A stretch of DNA of 64,000 nucleotides from NCBI RefSeq assembly GCF_039555335.1, contig NC_092642.1, positions 62,041,776 through 62,105,775 of the forward strand. The letters run 5' to 3'. Both the position numbers and the translations under genes were made by a program. Shown here piece by piece: positions 4,464 through 50,600 of this stretch. The DNA comes from Amphiura filiformis. Lineage: Eukaryota > Echinodermata > Ophiuroidea > Amphilepidida > Amphiuridae. Each line of letters starts with the position of its first letter. Positions within the stretch are counted from its first letter, which is position 1. The notes beneath the pieces are model-generated. The model saw only the letters and a program-made list of their open reading frames with translations. It was not told the DNA's origin and searched no databases.

Positions 4464-4522
4464 TACGCAGTATAGGAACGACTCGTGTATTCCTATACGC
4501 AGTATAGGAACGACTCGTGTAT
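4464..4522 (+). repeat. Two-copy direct repeat at the LINE 5' end
   Basis: A 27-bp unit beginning TACGCAGTATAGGAACG occurs at 4464-4490 and again at 4496-4522, a 32-bp period. Tandem units in the 5' region are common in LINE promoters, so a promoter role is plausible but not shown. Confidence 0.7.
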
Positions 4523-4552
4523 AAGCAAGAGTCAAATTTACTTAATATCCAT

Positions 4553-5290
4553 ATGGTTCCTACATACTATGCCAAGTATTTCCCAGGTCTTGTTAACCTA
4601 CTTAATACCTACAAGTACAAAGCCCAGTCAATTGGGCTACACAAAAGTAACCAACCTATCAAACTTGTCATGTCAGTAATTTCTTTGTTGATTATTATGC
4701 AAGCCGGTGATTTACATCCGCATCCCGGCCCTTATAAACCCAAGTTCCCATGTCTTCTGTGTGGTGAAGCAGCCAAATGGGGCCAGCGTGCAGTGGCTTG
4801 TGATCAGTGCCAAGGCTGGTATCATGCAGATTGCATGGACATGAACTCGGTAGTGTATCAAAACATAGCGGATGGTAGTAATGTATCTTGGATTTGCTGC
4901 CAATGCGGCCTTCCAAATTTCTCCAGCTCTCTGTTTTCAAGATCAGACATTGAGCTGTCAAACAGTTTTTCTTGTTTATCACCTGATTGTGACAGCATTA
5001 CCAGTGAGTTTCCTAGCTCGCCTTTGGCTTCCTCATCTCCATCCACCAAATCCAAGGGTTACCAGAACCCTAGACCTACCTCCAAACCAAAAAGAAACAG
5101 CCTAAAAATCCTGGTTGTAAACTTCCAGGGCATCCGCAACAAAACTGCGGATTTGAGAGTTTGTATTGATGATAAAGACCCAGATATCATCATAGGGTCT
5201 GAGACTCATTTGAATGATTCTGTGAACAGTTCTGAGCTGTTCCGTCCAACTTCACGGTTTTTAGAAAGGATCGCAATTTCGGTCCTGCCA
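4553..5290 (+). pseudogene. LINE N-terminal ORF: 2A-like motif, PHD finger, start of endonuclease
   Basis: The open frame holds, in order: a hydrophobic stretch ending in AGDLHPHPGP (4703-4732), which resembles the end of a 2A peptide; a PHD finger (4744-4911) with paired Cys, a WYHADC centre and a closing WICCQC; a Ser-rich linker; and the start of an AP-like endonuclease (ILVVNFQGIRNK, then GSETHL with the catalytic Glu). A frameshift near 5265 moves the endonuclease into another frame. In related LINEs a PHD finger often precedes the endonuclease. The His in place of Asn in the NPGP core suggests that 2A activity is lost here. Confidence 0.75.
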
Positions 5291-7890
5291 AAGGAGGTGT
5301 GCTTATAGCAACCAAAAACGACCTCATAGCCACTCATAGAGTGGACCTTGACTCGGAGTGTGAGGCGGTTTGGGTTTCAGTTGAACTTCAAGGAGCTAAA
5401 CAAATTATCATTGGTTCGTTCTATCGGTCCCAATTGTATGGTAACACTGTTGAGTATTTTGATCAGTTACGTGAGTCCCTTTGTAAAGCTACTAAAAACA
5501 AAAACAGCCAAATTTATTTAGCTGGGGACTTCAACCTTCCTGACGTTGATTGGCTAACCCAATCAATACCACCTGGCTCCCAATATGTTGCCCTGTCTAA
5601 TCACATGCTGGAGATTTCAGCTGAGTTTGGGTTGGATCAGATTGTCACCGAGCCTACCAGGATTGATAATATCCTTGATCTCTTTTTTACCACCAATTCC
5701 TCCTTAGTGGAGAGCTCAACTGTGATACCAGGCATTTCGGATCACGACGGTATTCCCCTGATTGTTGTAAACTCAAAACCCATAACTGTTAAACCTAAAC
5801 CAAGAAAAGTGTACAGCTATCACAAGGCTGATGTCAGTGTTATAAAAGCTGACCTCCTTGAGTTCAGTAATTATCTTACAACCAATGATAGTTCCAATTC
5901 AACTGTCGAAAAGTATGTATACGGATTTTGAAAATAAAATCAAAGATGTCATGGATGCCCATGTACCAGCTCGAATGGTCAGCAAAAAGAACCTGACCCC
6001 TTGGATTGGTAAAGGTATCAAGCGCTTACATAGAAAAAAAACAAAGGGCATACAACAGTTGGCGTAAACAACCAACACCTGACACCTTTGAAAATTTTCA
6101 GAACCAAAGGAAAGTGACTTATAATGAAACTAGAAAATCATACAGGAAATATATTAATTCAGTGTGTCTTGACTCCTCAAAAAGATTCTGGTCATTCATA
6201 AAGAGCCTAAAAAATGACTCTTGTGGAGTCCCCTCCCTGAAAAAGGATGGTGTAATTGTTTCTGGAAATATCCAGAAGGCTAACATACTCAATGATACTT
6301 TTAAAAGGTTTTCACTCAGGAGAAAGCTACGCTCCTCCTACTTCACCCAGTATAAATGTTCCATCCATGCCCGACTTTGAGATTTCAGTTGAGGGAGTTG
6401 TTAAGCTTTTAAAAGATCTTAAGCCAAATAAGGCTTCCGCCCAGATGGTGTACCTGCCCAAATTCTCAAACTCGCTGCTGATTAGGTGGCCCCTGCTCTT
6501 TGTTTGATTTTCCAAAAGTCTTTGGTCACATGTAACCTACCATCTTCCTGGCTTTGTGCTAACATCTCCCCTGTTTTCAAAAAAAGGTGATCGCTCAGTT
6601 GCTTCCAATTATAGGCCCGTTTGTTGACTTCCATTTGTTGCAAAACCCTTGAACATATTATCCATTCCCAAATAATGTCTCACTTTGATAAACATTCCAT
6701 CCTCACCAATAAACAGCACGGTTTTAGGAAACACCATTCATGTGAATCTCAATTAATACTTACAGTCAATGACCTTAAGTCTTCCCTCAATTCCAGATCC
6801 CAAATTGATATGATTATTATGGATTTCTCAAAAGCATTTGATACCGTCCCCCACAAACGTCTCCTTCACAAATTAAACTTATATGGTATTAGAAACAAAA
6901 CCTTCACTTGGATCTCTAATTTTCTCACGCACCGCACCCAGAGGGTCGTTGTCGGGGTGAGCACTCGACTTGGACAGAGGTGACTTCTGGCGTTCCCCAG
7001 GGTACGTGCTGGGACCCTTGCTTTTTTAGCTTTCATTAATGACCTGCCCAATAATATTACTTCTGAAGTTAGACTGTTCATGACGATTGTGTTATGTACC
7101 GTAATATTTCTAATCAATTTGACCAGGATCAACTCCAAGATGACCTTGACACCCTGGCCCAGTGGCAGGATGATTGGCAAATGCACTTCAACACCAAAAA
7201 GTGCTTTGTCATGCGGATTACACATGTTCGTAATCCCAAGGTCTACAATTACACCCTAGGACAATCCCCACTGGAATCCACGGGCGTGTCACGCTTATCT
7301 TGGAGTTGATATTACTAACAACCTAACCTGGAATAAACACATCAACCGTATTACATCTTCTGCAAATAGATCTCTTGGCTTTATAAAAAGGAACCTTTAC
7401 TCTTGCAACAAATCCATCAAAGAAAATGCATATTTCACCTTAGTTCGCCCACTCTTGGAGTACTCATCTTCAGTTTGGGACCCCCATACACAGGATCTTA
7501 TTAACAAATTAGAAAAAATTCAACGCAGAGCCGCAAGGTTTGTCGTCAATGACTACTCCAGACACAGCAGTGTTACTGAAATTCTCACCAACCTTCAATG
7601 GAACTCACTCAAGAACAGAAGGACAGTAAGCAGATTATCAGTTCTCCAGAAGTCAAGACAAAACCTCCTCGCCCTGCCGGTGAATGACCTCCTTCTGCCG
7701 GTCCGACGCCTGTCACGGCACCAACATCCCAACTGCTATCAACTCATCACATCTAACAAGAACTGTCACAAATACAGTTTTTCCCCAAACAGTCAAAGAT
7801 TGGAACTCACTTCCCTACTCAGTAACCACCATAGAAGACACCAAGCAATTTAAAACAGCCGTCATAAGCCACCTCAACCAACAAGACTAG
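5265..7890 (+). pseudogene. LINE endonuclease-reverse transcriptase, multiply frameshifted
   Basis: Endonuclease motifs continue (GSFYRS, LAGDFNLPDVDW, then GISDHDGI with the catalytic Asp-His). The linker and the RT follow: HGFRKHHSCESQL, DFSKAFDTVPHKRLL, VLGPLLFLAFINDLP-like and ADD-like blocks, then YLGVDI and the C-terminal region ending in WNSLPYSV. Frame changes occur near 5920, 6020, 6310, 6450, 6600, 6985, 7085 and 7300. A small deletion hits the catalytic ADD block near 7080. The stop lies at 7888-7890. Confidence 0.8.
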
Positions 7891-20137: not shown

Positions 20138-20502
20138 CGGCCCCCCAACTCAACACAAAAGTTGACAACCTAGAGAGTTACCAAATCTTTCAAAAGCCCC
20201 CTTTGCAATGATTTTTCATCAAATTTACCCCCCTTTTTTTCATGCAAAATCAAGGACAAAATTTGGCCAAAAACAACCCCTTTTTTGTAGTTTTTAATGA
20301 CCAAAATTTCAAACACCCCTTTTCAATGATTAGAATTTCAAACACCCCTTATCAATGACACTAAATATTGACATAAAATTTCTGGATTTTCTCAATTTTG
20401 CCAATTTCACAGTCCTTGCTACTGGCAAAAAAATAATACCCCAGTTTCTGCGCAATTTGGTAACTCGCATGGTTGTCAACTTTTGTGTTGAGTTGGGGGC
20501 CG
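20138..20502. repeat. Foldback element with CGGCCCCCAACTCAACAC ends
   Basis: CCCCCAACTCAACACAAAAG and TTGACAACC on the left are mirrored by GGTTGTCAACTTTTGTGTTG and AGTTGGGGGCCG on the right. The interior has direct repeats of TTTCAAACACCCCTT. It ends 80 bp beyond the stop codon of the MZB1-like gene. Confidence 0.7.
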
Positions 20503-20581: not shown

Positions 20582-23500
20582 TCATAATTCTTCCTTTGCT
20601 TTCTTGTCCTTTTTACTAATCTTCTTCCCCTTCTTTGTTTTTGTTTTCTTGGGTTTGGGCTTAGCTTTGGTTTTCTTGTTGCAATCTCTATCTTCTTCAT
20701 AGCATAAAAACTGCTTGAGATTTCCTTCTGTGAACGCTTCAAAGATTTCTTCATCACCTGGCTCTCCTAGGTAGTACCTACAGATCTGCTGCATTCTGTG
20801 AGAAGAAAGGGATTCAAAAAGTAAGCAGTGTGTTTTATTTTTGAATCTGCGATTTTGTTTCATTTCTGCTTGTATTTTTTTCCTTTTGTTTTTCTTTTAA
20901 TTCCTGTATTTTGTTTTGTTTTCTTATTGTTGTATAGGTTAGTACTGTTTTGTTTTAGCCGTGGTTAATTTGTGCTGTTTATTTCTTTCTGTTTTGTCTT
21001 TTAAAATGCACTACTTGTGCAATAATGCTAACACTTGGCTAATCCACTTGAAGTCCATACAACATATATACTTATACAGTATGCATGTATTTCAAATTGA
21101 GTTCCATTTCAAGTATACACCCCCTGTGTGGAAGATTATGGTTAGGTCTTCCATAGGGGGTGTATGGATTTCAAATGGAATATATCCCATTGGATACATG
21201 TTTGAGTAAGTAAAGTACCTGATTTCCAATTTGTGGCTGGGTGCATCAACATAGTTGCAAATCACAAATTGAATACAAAATTATTTAATTATAACAACTG
21301 GTGTGTAAAAGACATTGCTATAAGAGTACATGAACTGGTGAACAGTACAAACGGTTTGCAATTCACTTCTGCACAGATGTGTCACATATGACTTGTCCAT
21401 TCAGCTGTAAAAAATGACTTCCCAATGTGAATCATTAATGCCATATGTCAGCTTTTAATACAAAAGCCTTACAATGGTATTCAAAGCATGAACCAAAATG
21501 TATAAATGTTATAATATATTTAAAATGAACTTGGTGGTTTATTAAAGCATTGTTGGAAAACGAAGGCCAGGCAAGCAGGCTTGGCCGACCTACACTCTTA
21601 CTGTGGATGATTTATCTTACTTGGATTTATTTAAATGTTATAATAATTAGCATGGGCAAAAGAATTTGGAGAAGTGAGGCTATTTTGTAACTTCAAAGTA
21701 TGTGTAAAGTGGTTTCTGGTAATGACCGGTATATCTTTCTTGACCCAAAATCACATTATTTGAAGGGCGTCACAATCTGCAAACTGAGCTAGTTCTTTGT
21801 ACTAACTAACACAAATGGAGTACGGTATCTGACATTCTGTGATTCACTGTTACAGAGCCATCAGTCTTGGGCCCTTTGTCTTTCACTAATGGTTTGTTTG
21901 TTGCCCTTTTACGATATATGTTAAGTACTTTCATCACAATATTACAACACTCACTAATCAACATGCATGCATATGATAGAAAATACTTAACGCTATTGAA
22001 TCAGTGCCATGTGAAGGTTGTAGTGCACATACCACAGACTTCTCCAATTGAAATCTATACACCCATATGGAAGACATACACAGGGGGTGTACATTTCAAA
22101 TGGAGTTATCCATTCAGGTAACCCAATTTGAAATACTCACTCCCTGTGTGGAATAGGGGTATGGATTTAAACTAAAATAGCCCCATTAGTCTATAGGCAT
22201 CACCATCTGCACTGTCACAAATTGTGATCAACTTTAATTTCAAAGTGGGATGCAAAAGTGCTGTACATCTTTTTAAATGATCAGGCATTCTTTTACAGGT
22301 CATACTCCCAATTTCAAATGACATTGCAGTTTCAAAATTACGGAGAAAATTGGCATAGGGGGTGTATGGATTTCAAGTGGAATCAGGCACTTGCCCTGAG
22401 TGGACAACTTGTCTTGAGTGGACAACTTGTCCTGTGTGGACAAGTGAACTCTCAATTGCCACTTTTGGGTCACATGTACACAATATATCTTGCGGTTTAT
22501 AGTGTGGGTAGTCACTGGTGACGGGATAATCAATGATGCTGTGCACAATCACTAACACTTCATGCTGGATTTATAGCTGGATTACATCCATGCATCATGA
22601 CGGACACAACCATACGACCTCTCACCTCATGGGCCATCTCCCCCCTCCCTGTTGAATACCAGCCATTTCTTTGATATCCAATCCAGGACCAGAAAGTCTC
22701 TTCACACCTTGTATGTCTTTGATACCGACTCTGTGGATAACGAAAACATCTCAAGATATTTGATAAGATGTACATTGGTTATAAGATTTAATTTAACAGT
22801 GTGTACCCACCTTCCGGGCCATTTACCGCCTCCTTGCATTATACCTGGTATGTCTTTAGTCTCCAAACCTGGTCCTGCTAGTCTCTTTTTACCTTTCACT
22901 TCTTTGATACCGACTCTGTGTTCATCAAAATTGTATAAAGTGTGTTAATCAATCACATTGGTGTTGAATGGTAAATCATTCTTTTTCAACTGAAAGCCCA
23001 GGTGATTACTTGTATTCCAAGGTGTCGATATATCATGCTCATTCAACACGTAAAAAGGGTAGTTTTTCACAGGCAAGCAATGTATGCACATATACATCAT
23101 TTAAGTTGTCCAAAATGCCAAAAAATGCTGGGAATTTTAATTTGTTTAAGTTTGAGCATTTATAAAACACAGGACTTTATCACTACTTTTTCTCAGAAAA
23201 ATTGAGTAGGATTTCAGGTTTCCAAAGTTAAAAAACCAATGCCATCTTTCGTGAGATTTTTGTGTTGTCGAATTGGAAAAAAATAAAACAGCGGCAAAAA
23301 ATGGTCCTATATATTAAATCAGGCATGAGAATAAATTTTCATGACAAAACAGGAAAAATCTGAAAATTCTCATGCCTGTTTAAAAATAGAGCTTCTGATG
23401 TTCTACCAAGTGTTATCTTTTGAGCCAGGGAATTGAGTACAGTCATAAAATAGTCACCTGGAAGGGTTATCATCAGTTGACCATGACTAATAGAAATGAT

Positions 23501-26172
23501 AATGATATTCATAGAAATTAATTTTGCTGGTATTGTAAAAAAAACACCACACAGATCAACGTAATAAAATATGGTGTTTTCTGTGTGAATTTATTTCATT
23601 TTATTTGTAGGTTAATTATTAAAGCAATCTCCACCATATGATCCCTCAAGGCTGTTTACTTGCAATTGCTATGTATGATGCATGCATCGTCAGAGTTGTG
23701 GATGGTATTGCTTTAGAATGAGTAAAATCTAAAACAGTACCCACATTTTAGGTGGGTAAAAGTCCTGTGGTAATAGTTTTTTAAACTCAATGTGGAGAAT
23801 TACCAACCACACAATATAAGGTCTGAGGGGGTACCAGCATTTTTTCAATGCATATTGATTGTTAATTTGTTCACCTTTAAAATGGAAGAGAATTTGCCAT
23901 TTTGCTCTGGTCCAATACCATGTAAAATTCCACTATTTGGAGGGGGCGGGGGGAGGGGGAGGAGGAATTTAGGCACATTTCCTCACTCTACCCCCTCCCA
24001 TCTTTAAAATGGAGAATTTGCCATTTTTGTTCTGGTCCAAAATCATACAAAATTCCACCATTCATGCCATTTGGGAAGGGGGAATTAGAGGCACATATTC
24101 TCGCTCCACCCCTTCCCCCAATTCAATTTCCCTCCCCTTCCATGACCAAACCTGGAAAGAAATTTCCGGCCCTCCAGTGTAGTAGTATACTCATTTTATT
24201 TGTACCCACATACTTACTGATTAAAGTCATCTTTGCATGTTGATTCTAGTAAATCTAACACTTGTGATTCAGGGAGTTTGCCTTTAAGAGATGGTTGGTT
24301 GTCCACAGCTCTCTGAAGTTTCTCAGCAAACTGGAAAAGAAAATGTTATCACATTTTATTCTTGTTTTAAAATTGACTTTGAATCCATAAGATTAAGATG
24401 TACACACATTTTTAATTTATGCACATGTGTACAGTTCTCTGATGGGCAGCATCAGGGTCCGGTACCATCAAGCATACATGGTGTTGTTGAAGTTGTCGAA
24501 TCTTCAGTGGTTAGCAAAACTGAACCTAAAGATGAAACCTAACCAGAGCAGTTCTTCCCGGATGAACCAAACCTGCCTGGTTATCAAATTAATCAGTGAC
24601 AAGTTATCTCTGAATTTGACAAGTGCTAATTGATGTTTTAATATTTTTGCATCAATTAGCAAGGTCAAATTCAGAGATAACCTTGGCACTGATTAATATG
24701 ATAACCAGTCACAAATGTTCTGACTGGGCTTCCTCTTTAAGACAGAGAGACATTCCGGTGTCCACCAACATGTATTTAATACACACCCACCGCAAGCTAG
24801 GTTTTTGTAATTGATTTTTCACCAAACTTGCTGATGAGTCTTCGGAAGTCTTGGAAGAGTTTAATTAATTTTTGAGTTTGCATACAATAGACAAGTATAT
24901 GACAAGTGACATTTTTAGCAATGTTGAATATTCTGCTGATGTTTCAATTTGGTTATTTTGATGAGTCCATTGTATCTTTTAGAGCAAATGATGCCTATTT
25001 TGAGTCTAAAATTTAGTTAAAGTTTAATCTGAGCAACATTTTGATACAAATCACCCATCATGTTTACTTACTTACTGGTACTTCCATTGACTCAACACAG
25101 TATCACGCTTCATCGATTTCTACTAGATTTTGATCGCTTAATACGACCAGGGGTATTCTCTAACATTTGTGGCCACTAGCCAGTCAGGCAGATAAACCCA
25201 TAAAAGTTACCAGCCCAACACAAATGTTGCCAGCCTGACATTTGCCAGAATGCCAGAGTTTATAGAGTACGGTATATTGAAAAGCACAAGTTACACAAAA
25301 AATATAACCATACATTTTGTACTGACAGTGAACGATTTCTGTGATTTCACTGCAGTGGCAGAGCGACAGAGAAGTGCAGATATCATATCCCAGAGCTAGC
25401 TCAGGTGGTTCAGCTCAGGGTTGTGATATTACCAGTTTATCATCAATTTATTACCCACCGTCCAGGTGGGCAGGTAATTTTGAAAATTTAAATGCCCGAC
25501 AGCAAAGTCACCCGCCCCTGGTGTTCGACTTCTCAAGCAATCTTTATTTTAAGACTGAGGGGTAGTAAAATACTATAAAAATACAAGTGATTCATGATGC
25601 ATCATAATGAATTACAGAAGCTTGAAATAAAAAAAATAATAAAGAACAAACAAACATGGACCCCATCCATTCCAGAAAATGATGCCGGGGGCAAGGGACG
25701 AGAAGGAAAACAATTATTTTACAATTTACAGCAATGAAAATTTATTCACAGATGGCCCCTATCTTGCATGTCCATTTTAATATCCTAACATTATCAATGT
25801 ATATCTCTAGTCAGTCGAGTAATTTTATGTAAACATTTAATAGCATGTCTGCCGAATTTGGAAGTATTTTTAAGTAAGCTTAAAAGTCTGGGCGTGTCAT
25901 TTTCTTACCGTAAATGCAAGAATATTGCATGCATCGCATTTTAAGTCGCTTGGTAGATGCTCCGAATAGTGGTCTTCGTCATCTAAGTCTGGAGTTTTGA
26001 AAGAAAGCGTTCCTTTCGAAGCAAACCCTGATTCTGGGTCGACATCAGCTTCGGGATCTGGTTCCCATTTACTCTGACACAGTGAAAGCTCAGGACCAAA
26101 AACTGCAAATGTAAACAACACCGAAAATAGTGTGCAAAACAACTCCTGACTCCACTTAGCCATTGTTTTCAT
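20582..26172 (-). CDS. MZB1: MZB1/canopy-family ER saposin-like protein with a duplicated exon
   Basis: Coding exons in transcript order: 26172-25909, 24330-24218, then 22915-22811 (3A) or 22730-22626 (3B), then 20795-20582. GT/AG borders and phases fit; with one exon 3 the product is 231 aa. MZB1 (pERp1) and canopy proteins are ER-lumen folding helpers with a saposin-like fold. The start is the first in-frame ATG, followed by a signal peptide (hydrophobic about residues 11-25). Then come an acidic spacer, the DLDDEDHYSEHLPSDLKCDAC block (like human LDDEEMYSAHMP..LRCDAC), GIKEVKGKKRLAGPG (exon 3), CRYYLGEPGDEEIFEAF, a Lys-rich tail and C-terminal KEEL. Six Cys (79, 82, 120, 166, 192, 199) match the family pattern. 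KEEL should retain it in the ER. Human MZB1 ends REEL and lacks the long Lys-rich tail. Canopy 1/2 orthology is possible; the GPG and GG-WP spacing favours MZB1. Confidence 0.88.
21041..21192. repeat. Foldback MITE, family B, copy in last intron of the MZB1-like gene
   Basis: It has AATCCACTTGAAGTCCATAC at one end and ATTTCAAATGGAATATATCC at the other, with CCCCCTGTGTGGAAGATTA and TCTTCCATAGGGGGTGTATG inside. The left half is degraded. Confidence 0.65.
22041..22185. repeat. Foldback MITE, family B, second copy in the last intron of the MZB1-like gene
   Basis: Contains TCCAATTGAAATCTATACAC, then TTTCAAATGGAGTTATCCAT, and closes with ATGGATTTAAACTAAAATAG. A small further fragment (GGGGGTGTATGGATTTCAAG) lies at about 22358-22380. 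Confidence 0.65.
22626..22730 (-). CDS. Exon 3B of the MZB1-like gene, tandem copy of 3A
   Basis: 105 nt, bounded by CCACAG upstream and GTGAG downstream. It encodes VGIKDIQGVKRLSGPG, then a segment ending GGGRWPM. Twenty-one of 34 whole codons match 3A in amino acid, and length and phase are identical. Only 80 bp separate the two. The frame is intact, so both copies appear to be under coding constraint. Confidence 0.82.
22811..22915 (-). CDS. Exon 3A of the MZB1-like gene
   Basis: 105 nt, bounded by CACAG upstream and GTGGGT downstream on the minus strand. It encodes VGIKEVKGKKRLAGPG, then a segment ending GGGKWPG, with split codons at both edges. It joins in frame to exon 2 and to either exon 3B or exon 4. 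Confidence 0.85.
23883..24130. repeat. Two-copy tandem repeat in an intron of the MZB1-like gene
   Basis: A unit of about 120 bp containing GAGAATTTGCCATTTT, CTCTGGTCCAA, AAATTCCAC and a G-rich run occurs at about 23883 and again at about 24008. The copies are clearly related but diverged. Confidence 0.6.
24578..24708. repeat. Compact foldback element in an intron of the MZB1-like gene
   Basis: About 58 bp on each side are inverse to each other: TGGTTATCAAATTAATCAGT and GTTATCTCTGAATTTGAC on the left, their complements on the right, around a short AT-rich loop. The arms are close in sequence, so the copy looks recent. Confidence 0.75.
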
Positions 26173-35589: not shown

Positions 35590-35654
35590 GCAAACGCATC
35601 AATCCTGGAAGTATTCCATTGGCGACATCAAGTACATAACACACAATAGATGAC
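35590..35654 (+). other. 5' UTR part of the first coding exon, ZCCHC7-like gene
   Basis: CTTTTATAG at 35581-35589 is a good 3' splice site. The 65 nt between it and the ATG would be untranslated, which implies an upstream non-coding exon that I could not locate. Confidence 0.45.
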
Positions 35655-38600
35655 ATGGCGTCTTTCCCAGACATGTATGGAGATGATGAGGCTGAGAAAG
35701 CAGAACTTGAGATGTACGGTTTAAAGAACGATTACGAAGATTACGATGACAGCGAAGACGAAAGAGCTGCCGTGGAACAGGCTATGTTCATGAGGATACA
35801 CTATGCTGCTGCAATGGTGAACAAAGATGAGGTGACGGATGCAGACATCACTGATAAAGAGACACCAGTGGTATCAAATGAGGGACAAGATAATGAAACC
35901 ATCTTCAGTTCACTCCTTGAAAACAATAACAGTGACATCAACGTCCAAATTATGCCACGAACCAAAGAAGACATTGTGAATAACAAGCTGAATCTAATTA
36001 AAAGCAAAGCATTCAACAATGCAGTTGAAGAATTGAATGAAAAAGAATCGGATGTGACCAAAGTAGAAAAAGAAAGTAAGGAAAAGAAAGGTGCATCCGA
36101 TTTAGATGATTCGGTTGTTCTGCTCGAGAATGAAGCGGATGATGAGTCCCATTCCAAGTACACATTTGTTAAGTCAAAGACATCTAAATCAAAAGATGTT
36201 GATGGTTCTGAAGATACTGCTAATTTACCAAAGAATGTAAGAGTTACTTCCATTGAATGTGATAACACAGTGTGTATTTCATCATCATCATCATCAGACA
36301 GTGATAGTGATATCTGTATTGTTAGCAAGAAATCACCCCGACGGAAGCGCAAAGAAATGCCAAATTCTTCCATTACCTCAGTTCAAGAATTACCCGGTGG
36401 TCTAAAAATCAACAGAACATCATTTTCAAATACCACTCCAAAATCTGTGGAACAAACTGAGCCGATTAAACAAAGAACTTGGCGAGCAGCAGGTGCTTTG
36501 TCGAGCAACTCGGACAGAACAGCCGTTATCGAAATAACATCGGAAACAATTTCAAAATCACTCAAAGAAAGTCAAAACAGTTCTCTGAAAGGTATCAGTG
36601 GTGGTGAGAGGATTGATGTAAGTGGTAGCCGTGTTGGTGGGAAGGACTCGGGAGAAGAATCAGAAGGTGCAGAATCGGATTCGGACTGTATGTTGATAGA
36701 GTCTATGAGTGAAGATGAAGATATGGACTTCAACTTTGTCACGCCGCTTGGAATGAGCAGACCTAGTGAGAAACCGGGAGATGCAGAAATACAAAAGGTA
36801 AGTGTTGGTTGTAGTTGGACTAAATTATAATGCTGTTCAACTGGACTAACTGTTCTGGATGGCTACGGTATCACGTCATATCCATGACGCATCATCAGGC
36901 CTACTGATCTTGAATACAGGGCCAATTCAAGATCAGTATGCGTCATGGATATGACGTGATACCATAGCCATCTAAAACAGTATTTAATTCCAGTTGAACA
37001 GAATTATCATTTAGTCCATCTATAATTAACTACCATGGATGATTGAAAATATTCATAAATACGTAAGTGTTGGTTGCTTTATGTATGATACGTGACACCT
37101 GGGTTGGTAGCCCAAGTTGAGTGCCGGCTAATTTTACTATCCAAATAGAGGGATTTGGGAAAAAATTATATATCTCCGATACGAAAGGTCAATATTTTCA
37201 TATGATGGACGGGTTTTCCTTCCAGCTACAATGTACATACACTTTAAGTACAAATGTATAAAGTTTACTTACAATGTAGAGGGCTGCTGCATGTCAAAAA
37301 TATCAGTTTTTAATAATTTGCCATACCATTTGTATCTCAAATTTCAAAAATAGAATTCCTCATATTCAGAATGCAATTTGGTGTGTCTGATGTGCTAATG
37401 GTCCCACAAAATACACTGTGCAATTGTTGCTATCCGAATCCTTAATTTTGTTTACTTCTTGTATTTCAGGATGACAGCAGTACTACAAAATCGGAGGTAA
37501 TAGGCGTAGGAAGTAAAGGACCATTGTGTTTTAATTGTAAGGAGTTTGGTCACCCAGCCAGGTACTGTCCTTTATCAAAGGTAGGCTTCTACTTTGAAGA
37601 TGAATGAACCAAAGCTGGATTTATACTTGATTGCTTTTTGCATAAAAGCGAATCACACACATGCTGTTAAGTGCAAAAACAATTATTGTACATATACTGA
37701 GCATGCGTGTGATCCGCCCTTCTACAAAAACGATCAAGTATAAATTTAGCTTAAGTTGGATTTATTTTGAACATTAAGGTTACTGCCACATTAGTAGTGC
37801 TACTTTTCATGTCCCTATAGGCATGGTTGTAGCTAGGATATTTTAGTGCTGGGTGGCATTTGATCAAAATCTTGCATATTGGCAATTTGTTGTCAAACTT
37901 GACCAAATTCTTGACTAATTCAATAAAATTCTGGACTCTTGAGTGGTGGGCTCCAGTAGCTCGAGATACTCTAGCTAAAATACAGGTTTACATTTACTAT
38001 CTTACATTATCTTGCTGTATTTCAGCTAGAGCTCCAAACGACAAGCTTCCGGTTTTTTGAGGAACAATACTGTTACGTAAGATGAAGAAGAAACCCGCCT
38101 CGGAGCCCGCCCTACTCATTATTTCATTGTACTTATTGCAATTTGCCTCCACACATTACGTAATCAACACAAAGCTTTTGTGAGGATTAGTGAGTGGATA
38201 AGAAATTGACAATGGATAATACGAAGGACACGCCGATTGTTAGTTGTCAATCATGAATTGCCGCAACGTATTAATATTTTACTGCATGGCATTCCGCAAA
38301 CACCAAGACAAATTATGCCGTATTTTTCCAAAGATCATCTCATATGAAGTAAGCTGAATGCGATCTGTACTTTTGTAACATTCCGATCGCTTTTGATCAC
38401 CTATTATCGGAGAATTTGCTTGAAAACACATGAGTTCATGTTGTGTAAACATAATTAGCATAGATACAAATGAAATTACGATGCAATATAATGCAATTTG
38501 AATGCGCAGCAGATCTATAGAAATAACGTTGCCCGGTTTTATGCAGAATTAGACCCTGTCTGGGCTCCAGTGCTAAAAATGCAGCTGAGTGGTGGGCTCT

Positions 38601-47600: not shown

Positions 47601-50600
47601 AAAGGGGTACTTCATGCTAAGTCATACTTTGCTTTCATAAGGGTATAAGTTCACTGTAAGATTTGTTTGTGATTTTCATTTCCTCATCAGTTGCGGAATT
47701 GTATGAAGAAGAATACAAGACACACCACCAGCCGGCACTCAGGAAGTCTTTTCAGAATGAACCAAGCGTAAGTAGAGATGAGCGAGCAACAAGGAGGGAA
47801 AGCTTGCGTTTCAAGTCTTTTCAGAATGAACCAAGTCTAAGTAGAGATGAGCGAGCAAAAAGGAGGGAAAGCTTGCGTTTCAAGTCTTTTCAGAATGAAC
47901 CAAACCTAAGAAGAGATGAAGCGAGCAACAAGGAGGAAAAGCTTGCGTTCCAAGCCTTCAATAGAGGACAAAATAAAACAAGGCATCAAATTAACAAAAA
48001 AAGGTAAATGGAAATGTCATCACACTGCAGTTTTGGACAGTCAGGGTTCGATTTAGGGGCTTTACATGCACATATGCATGTAACATTGGTTTTAGGCATG
48101 TAAAATTTTGCCTGTGCGTGCAAAATTTTGTGACATTCAGCCCATATTCAAGGAAAAACTGCAGTGGTGCATGTAACTTTTATTTTCTAAATCGACCTGG
48201 GCTTGGTATTAGGTTTGAGGTGAGTCAGTTTTAGCCCTATAAAAATCTGCAATTGTACTTGTTAATATGAATGCATTTATCTTATCGGAAATGATTCACG
48301 GAAGCCAATTATCGCATTTATATTTCCATGCCTTGCTGTATATATATCAAAAACAAAAGTGTGGGGCATTTTCCTATCCGGAGGAAAACTCATGGGGCAG
48401 AAATTATACCCCTTTTGTTAAAGCCTGGGGAATCTGATCATTTGCAGATACCAGCTGTGTGTCAACTTTATTTGGCTCAATACTTGAGTTCAAACACCAA
48501 TGTTTTTGTGTGCAAACACCACTAGGTCTTGCTCCCCTCCAACCCGCCATACGGTGGTGTGGAGAAGGTCATTGTGGCATGTGGCTGTATGGTTACCATC
48601 ATCCCTATTGATAATTACACAGCTTAAATGGACTATTGGATCAATGATAGTTTCACCATAATAGTGCTGCAAGATGGTATCATTGATTCTATCTGCTTGC
48701 CTCATTTGGTTGTTGGGCCTAGGCCCATGCATGAGTGACCAGGATGGTTATATTTGTTCTATTGAATCCTCAACACCTTGTAATGGGAGATATGGACTTG
48801 TGCATTGCCGATACCTTGCACGCAGGATCCCCTTGTACAGTAACTCATCATCAACGTTTCAAGCCGAACTGCTTCGCTCAGGCGATATTAACCCGAACCC
48901 TGGCCCTACAAATGAAATCTCAGTAAATCCTAGCAAACATAGAGACACTGCTCCCCCATATGATCCCAGTAAGATATGTTATACCAATGAGCAACTGCTG
49001 GACATGAACCATCAGAACCTTTCCCTTCCTGTTTCTGTTTGGAATACCATAAAGACTCTGAACATAAATCGGAAACCCATCTACCCATCGTGGATGTAGA
49101 GCCGGCGTGAAGAAACAACGCGGACGATTGCAGATAGCCAAACAACATCATCTTGGGTTCTTTAATGGGACTGAAGTAATACAACCTATACCTGTCATCT
49201 TCCGGCCTAGGAGGAACAATTCTAAACTATCACTGCAGATTAACTCTAAACCTAACTTTAATAACTTGCGTACAATTAAGTGTGTCTCAAATTTCAATGA
49301 AACTACTCTTGATATATGTTTGTGGAACGCCTGGTCTGTCAGGAACAAGACGGCTCTTCTATGTGATTACACAACTGAAAATGACATTGACGTCTTTTTT
49401 CTGACAGAGACATGGCTGTATGATCGACCATTATTGGGGAATTCAAACCCCCAGGTTATCTGTTCCTAAACCATCCTCGACACGATGGAAGAAGTGGTAC
49501 ACGAGGAGGTGGTATTGGTGTTTTATATAAAACCGAATTGAATTTGATGTCAATTAGTAGTGGTATTGTAACAACGACATTTGAGCATATTGTAGTAACT
49601 GATCAATCTAGATCAATTCTTTTCATTGTCATATACAGGCCCCCACCATCAAAAGTTAACAAACTCAAACTAAGTGACTATCTTGTTGAAATCAACAACT
49701 TTATAGGGGAATCAGCCCAGTTACCAGTTAAACATATTTACCTGGGGGATTTCAATATTCATATGAATGAGCCCACAAAATCTCATGTTGCCAAATTTAT
49801 TAACATTCTCTCCTGCAATAACTTACAAAACTATGTGACTGGTCCTACTCATAAATCTGGAAACCAGTTAGACTTAGTCATTGGTAATGTTGATGATAAT
49901 CTTGTGATGAATTGCAAAACCCATCAAAATCTAATGTCTGATGATCACTATTCTGTGTTTTTCAAACTAAATCGTAAAAAAACAGATATGCCTAGAACAT
50001 ATGTGCACATCCATATCAAAACGATGCACTTGTCGGCTGCTACATGTGTTTCATTTCACATAATAGCTAGGAATAAATACCAGACTCATATCAAGTGTAG
50101 GTCACTTCAAATCATCCCAAGTCAAATTGTATAAGAAATATTATCTGTATTCCTAAACCATGTGACTTGGGATAATTTGAAGTGACCTCCACGTAATGAG
50201 ATGAGTCTGGTATTTATTCCTAGTTATTGTGTGAAATGAGACACATGTAGCAGCTGACAAGTGCATCCTTTTGATATGGATGCACACATATACTAGTTGC
50301 CGTGATTTTAGGACTGTTGACATTGATCAACTCATGATGGACTTGACAACTGAGTTAGCTCCTTTAATGAGCATCATGAATGTTGATGAGCAAGTGCAAT
50401 TCTATGATGCCACTGTTTGTGATGTTCTTGATAGGTATTGCCCTATACAATCTCGCAATAGAACTATTAAGCCCAAGAGTGCCTTGGTATAATGATGATA
50501 TTCATCTTGCTAGAAGGGTTAAGCGTGACTTGAGCGTCGCTGGCGTAAGAGCAAACTGGATACTGACCGCGAAGCATATGTTGTTCAGTTGGGTGTGCTT

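Follow-up and report, generated by a model that had tools for sequence, protein, structure and literature searches.

Does a single MZB1-like gene encode two interchangeable versions of one segment of its product, and does each of its mRNAs then take one version or the other? The question is raised by two neighbouring exons on the minus strand of a 64,000-nucleotide stretch of DNA, here called the window, which a first-pass annotation had put forward as candidates for mutually exclusive splicing (exons 3A and 3B, here U and D, in the order of transcription). MZB1 itself is best known from mammals, where it assists antibody secretion as a co-chaperone. We consider it fairly probable that exon 3 of this single gene underwent an old tandem duplication, that the two copies were both retained as functional coding exons, and that most likely one copy is used per mRNA. 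Such use would give two ER co-chaperone isoforms which differ solely in a segment of 35 residues, located between domain cysteine 3 (exon 2) and domain cysteine 4 (exon 4).

Gene identity and exon layout

Both predicted isoforms match human MZB1 (PDB 7aah_A) about equally well, the one with U at 99.5 bits (E 1.9e-27) and the one with D at 97.8 bits (E 5.7e-27). The match covers residues 52-205 of the 231-residue query and aligns all six domain cysteines, as looked for in an MZB1 / pERp1 / CNPY5 sequence, and the earlier assignment to an MZB1-type gene is thereby borne out. In the PDB search 7aah_A was the sole match at E up to 1, and the assignment is one made within the PDB only, not on a tree against the other CNPY paralogues. 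The canopy family model (PF11938, DUF3456) gave 20.4 bits for U and 17.6 bits for D on trimmed proteins, compared to 29.3 bits for the human MZB1 control, while a Pfam search of the four full-length isoforms returned no match. As both scores fall under the curated cut-off of 21.1 bits, membership of PF11938 is not claimed and the gene is, by its sequence, termed MZB1-like. Together with its introns and the retroelement pieces in the window, the gene points to an animal source.

Besides the cysteines, the predicted protein has in common with human MZB1 (pERp1, CNPY5; 7aah) the DD.E..YS.H.P motif, the single-domain length and the landmarks KRL.GPGL and GG.WP.R. It ends in KEEL, by eye a KDEL-like tail, which may be of the type given for human MZB1 in passages of a 2026 review (PMC13003553). 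The lysine-rich tail encoded by exon 4 falls outside the human match. A hydrophobic N-terminus, also recognized by eye, follows the predicted start codon, and the protein is presumably resident in the ER. The start codon is placed at 26172, probably with no further exons upstream; the frame at this position stays open upstream as far as 26334.

Table 1. Exons and introns of the MZB1-like gene that carry the argument, in order of transcription (positions in the window).
Feature	Position	Strand	Description
Whole MZB1-like gene	26172 -> 20582	minus	from predicted start codon to stop
Exon 1	25909..26172	minus	predicted start codon, hydrophobic N-terminus, domain cysteines 1 and 2 (CDAC); aligned to 7aah_A
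Exon 2	24218..24330	minus	domain cysteine 3; ends two bases into a codon; aligned to 7aah_A
Exon 3 copy U (3A)	22811..22915	minus	105 nt; first in transcription; donor strong, acceptor tract weak
Intron between U and D	22731..22810	minus	80 nt, GT-AG; branch-point candidates 28, 31, 46 and 59 nt from donor
Exon 3 copy D (3B)	22626..22730	minus	105 nt; donor strong, acceptor better than that of U
Exon 4	20582..20795	minus	domain cysteines 4-6, lysine-rich tail with final KEEL, stop; aligned to 7aah_A

The introns measure 1578, 1302, 80 and 1830 nt, in that order, and all are of the GT...AG kind (Table 1). The interval given earlier for the exon pair, 22626..22915, coincides exactly with the outer ends of U and D, and the length of 105 nt, the shared phase, the intact splice sites, the open frames and the 80-bp spacer (a predicted intron) were likewise correct. 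CACAG stands immediately before each copy and GTG immediately after it, and each copy joins exon 2 and exon 4 in phase. U and D are thus adjacent homologous exons of the same phase with intact splice sites, that is, tandem duplicated exons. The frame remains open whether U alone, D alone, neither or both are included, the last as previously stated. Since 105 is a multiple of 3, joint inclusion or joint skipping of the copies is frame-neutral, and this counts against exclusive use. The cysteines on either side of the duplicated segment sit in exon 2 and exon 4, in keeping with the claim that the gene offers two versions of one segment between conserved cysteines; the human MZB1 chain holds one version of this segment, whereas two exons encode it here.

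Similarity, age and selection on the two copies

The peptides of U and D are identical in 21 of the 34 whole-codon residues and differ in 13, and the landmarks GIK, KRL, GPG and GGG-WP are present in both, a recount that agrees with the first-pass annotation. Their alignment score of 135, compared to a maximum of 51 among 5000 shuffles, is far above chance. At the DNA level the repeat that spans the copies is 113 nt long, ungapped and 73% identical. When the exon peptides of the gene were used as tblastn queries, that of exon 4 being trimmed of its lysine-rich tail, the 64-kb window yielded no third exon 3 (nothing else matched exon 3 at E < 0.9) and no duplicate of exon 1, exon 2 or exon 4. 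The strongest of the remaining matches was one of exon 2 (E 0.044, 19 residues).

Between U and D 31 of the 105 bases differ, distributed as 7, 5 and 19 over the three codon positions, a third-position excess with p=0.0013. The NG86 method gave dN 0.26 and dS 1.14 (Fisher p=0.0017), and a simple likelihood on the NG86 counts put omega at 0.23 (95% interval 0.03-0.56), so that omega 1 is rejected (p=0.001). The copies thus differ as if under purifying selection overall (dN/dS 0.23). YN00 on the other hand gave dN 0.36 and dS 0.48, i.e. a weak constraint, which counts against the retention of two working copies. The strength of the constraint varies with the method, as is expected for 34 codons.

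The flanking introns of U and D have no similarity above that of shuffles (259/500 shuffles upstream, 125/500 downstream), with ungapped identity at 27/80 and 20/77 bases. As the introns are no more alike than shuffled sequence while the coding copies are constrained, the duplication is old, the coding similarity having been held as that of the flanks was lost; the tandem duplication noted earlier is, in other words, real and old, and carries a signature of constraint. Splicing elements copied along in the flanks were also considered and dropped, the flanking similarity being no better than in shuffles. The number of differing bases together with the dissimilar flanks is far beyond allelic divergence, and within the window the gene has no further duplicated exon. 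An artefact of the assembly, or the collapse of two alleles or two genes, is therefore a highly improbable source of the pair, and nothing specific speaks for it.

Neutral simulations produced a copy that was merely open in 33275/100000 cases, and an open frame alone is therefore weak evidence; a copy both open and at least as similar as observed arose in 206/100000. A model in which one copy is neutral and the other constrained (omega ~0.55) was only marginally rejected (p=0.054). It is likely, rather than certain, that both copies and not one alone have been held by selection. The opposing explanation, that one copy is used and the other is a relic whose frame is still intact, draws on the same figures, that is, the marginal rejection, the weak constraint by YN00 and the frequency with which neutral copies stayed open, and in addition on the weak acceptor tract of U, the poorer fit of D to the human segment (14 identities versus 18 for U) and its lower PF11938 score. 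We hold it to be unlikely, as the landmarks of the family and the two splice sites survive in U as well as in D, and as neutral copies were so rarely both open and as similar.

Use of the copies and splice signals

If both copies are retained, the manner in which they enter the mRNA has to be asked. Joint inclusion would yield one protein of 266 residues in which the segment is repeated between cysteines 3 and 4. The frame permits this, and the 80-nt intron could be spliced if the candidate branch point at 59 nt were used. It is nevertheless a decidedly improbable outcome. Human MZB1 carries this segment only once, which favours substitution over repetition. In addition, both halves of the segment are kept in each copy: over the first 18 alignment columns with the human segment U has 10 and D 9 identities, and over the remaining columns 8 and 5, respectively. 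Constant co-inclusion should have left mainly the neighbour-side half of each copy, and the presence of landmarks in both halves, where specialisation by half would be expected, argues likewise for substitution. A match of each copy to both halves of the human segment is what one would expect of exons that serve singly. The earlier proposal of mutually exclusive splicing stands in so far as the copies are interchangeable, in phase and constrained, while the exclusivity itself is something we infer from the sequence: both copies would be expressed, and U and D are probably used in a mutually exclusive manner.

Splice sites were scored with crude matrices of human frequencies, the percentiles being relative to the GT or AG sites on the strand. 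By these matrices the donors of U and D both reach the 99.9th percentile of GT sites; among AG sites the acceptor of D ranks at the 96th percentile and that of U at the 62nd. With its better acceptor D would be the default exon, and the use of U, with a strong donor and a weak pyrimidine tract, could be regulated. The joining of U to D would probably be discouraged by the 80-nt intron between them, in which three of the four best-placed branch-point candidates lie under the steric limit of ~50 nt. These four (Table 1) are the top four of eight listed by a crude matrix and are measured from the donor of U. An AG intervenes before the true acceptor for each of the three nearer ones, and the fourth, at 59 nt, would permit U-D joining and counts against exclusion. 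Steric exclusion of U-D joining by the candidate branch points is thus possible.

A comparable arrangement is found in OGDH, where, according to passages of PMC7969005, exons 4a and 4b are kept mutually exclusive by branch points that lie 25-41 nt from the donor, the steric threshold being given as ~50 nt. The likeness lies in the short intervening intron and in the branch-point candidates less than ~50 nt from the donor; unlike in OGDH, the candidates here are predicted only, one of them would permit joining, and the nearer ones are each followed by an AG. A single-sequence scan for competing RNA structures of the Dscam type, with equal steps for observed and control sequences and with dinucleotide shuffles, found none beyond shuffles (the observed value was reached by 83/100 shuffles for a dock in intron 3 and by 30/100 for one in intron 2). 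A docking site in intron 3 had been hinted at with single-base shuffles (1/40, compared to 9/40 for intron 2), but this hint did not persist with equal steps and dinucleotide shuffles. Exclusion by way of mixed U2/U12 splice sites was dropped on inspection by eye, as all four introns are GT-AG and the donors of U2 type.

Comparison with known events and possible meaning

The mutually exclusive use of tandemly duplicated exons is a well-known type of event. Tandemly duplicated exons occur in ~10% of animal genes according to a 2002 study as cited in passages of PMC9013439, and PMC9741552 reports 236 annotated tandem duplicated exon substitution events in human. The latter resemble U and D in being adjacent, homologous and equal in phase, with landmarks kept and mostly outer positions changed, and differ in that exclusive use is annotated there and inferred here; the terms MZB1, CNPY and 'chaperone' are absent from the main text of that paper. 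Among invertebrates, an alternative oxidase gene of the oyster gives two mRNAs from a duplicated exon, as described in excerpts of PMC5589949. The protein is unrelated, and the mRNAs were observed in the oyster, whereas the two versions here are predicted.

No report of a duplicated-exon event in MZB1 or a canopy gene was found in open-licence PMC papers, among the matches listed, which agrees with the remark in the first-pass annotation that no such diversification was known to it for MZB1. Two papers retrieved as possible precedents were set aside: in the passages concerned, MZB1 is a cell marker in PMC13269837 (found by MZB1 and 'mutually exclusive exons'), and PMC5793191 (found by CNPY and 'duplicated exon') deals with the human CNPY3-GNMT readthrough. 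The duplication of exon 3 may already sit in the public annotation of MZB1 orthologues. Relatives were absent from a viral contig collection, and a prokaryotic one gave 8 pattern matches, none of which was confirmed; these collections are uninformative on conservation in animals.

The two isoforms may bind different clients or partners. Contact of the MZB1 saposin domain with the immunoglobulin heavy chain and with BiP/GRP94 is named as future work in the 2026 review (PMC13003553). Should a non-mammalian animal have kept two constrained versions of the one segment, the segment would be a good candidate for a specificity determinant, and an exchange of the natural versions would offer a ready-made test. 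More tentatively, and as a rather doubtful extension, regulated mutually exclusive splicing might switch a client- or GRP94-facing segment of an invertebrate MZB1, such that one gene would serve two sets of secreted clients. This would amount to control of ER co-chaperone specificity at the level of splicing in an animal without antibodies.

Repeats and other features of the window

Several repeats lie in and near the MZB1-like gene. Downstream of D, the intron that leads to exon 4 contains dispersed repeats of 28-30 nt (GGGGGTGTATGGATTTCAAATGGAAT type), direct as well as inverted, at 21073-21181, 22077-22153 and 22354-22383, and an 18-nt tandem repeat of 3.1 copies at 22389-22443, ~180-240 nt downstream of exon D, possibly a splicing element. 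Possible hairpins are present in intron 1 (24574-24711; 30-nt arms, 90% complementary, 78 nt apart) and in intron 2 (23307-23391; 26-nt arms, 85% complementary, 33 nt apart). Downstream of the stop codon of the gene, at 20142-20499, 45-nt inverted repeat arms that are 93% complementary and 268 nt apart resemble a small mobile element.

Rfam and ARAGORN gave no match over the window. On the plus strand, an acidic and serine-rich open stretch of 396 codons at 35640-36827 is probably a large exon of another gene; neither Pfam (E 0.001) nor the PDB (E 0.1) gave a match for it. Also on the plus strand, a tandem array at 47744-48000 has a 69-nt unit in 3.1 copies (92% match over 47744-47958) and lies within an open stretch, 47660-48004, that encodes a 23-residue protein repeat (KSFQNEPSxSRDERA...). 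Endonuclease-reverse transcriptase domains (PF14529) are found on the same strand at 5236-5928 and 49424-50131, and the open stretch 4508-5305, just ahead of the first domain, carries a PHD finger (PF00628); by their domain content 4508-5928 and 49424-50131 are classed as pieces of non-LTR retroelements.
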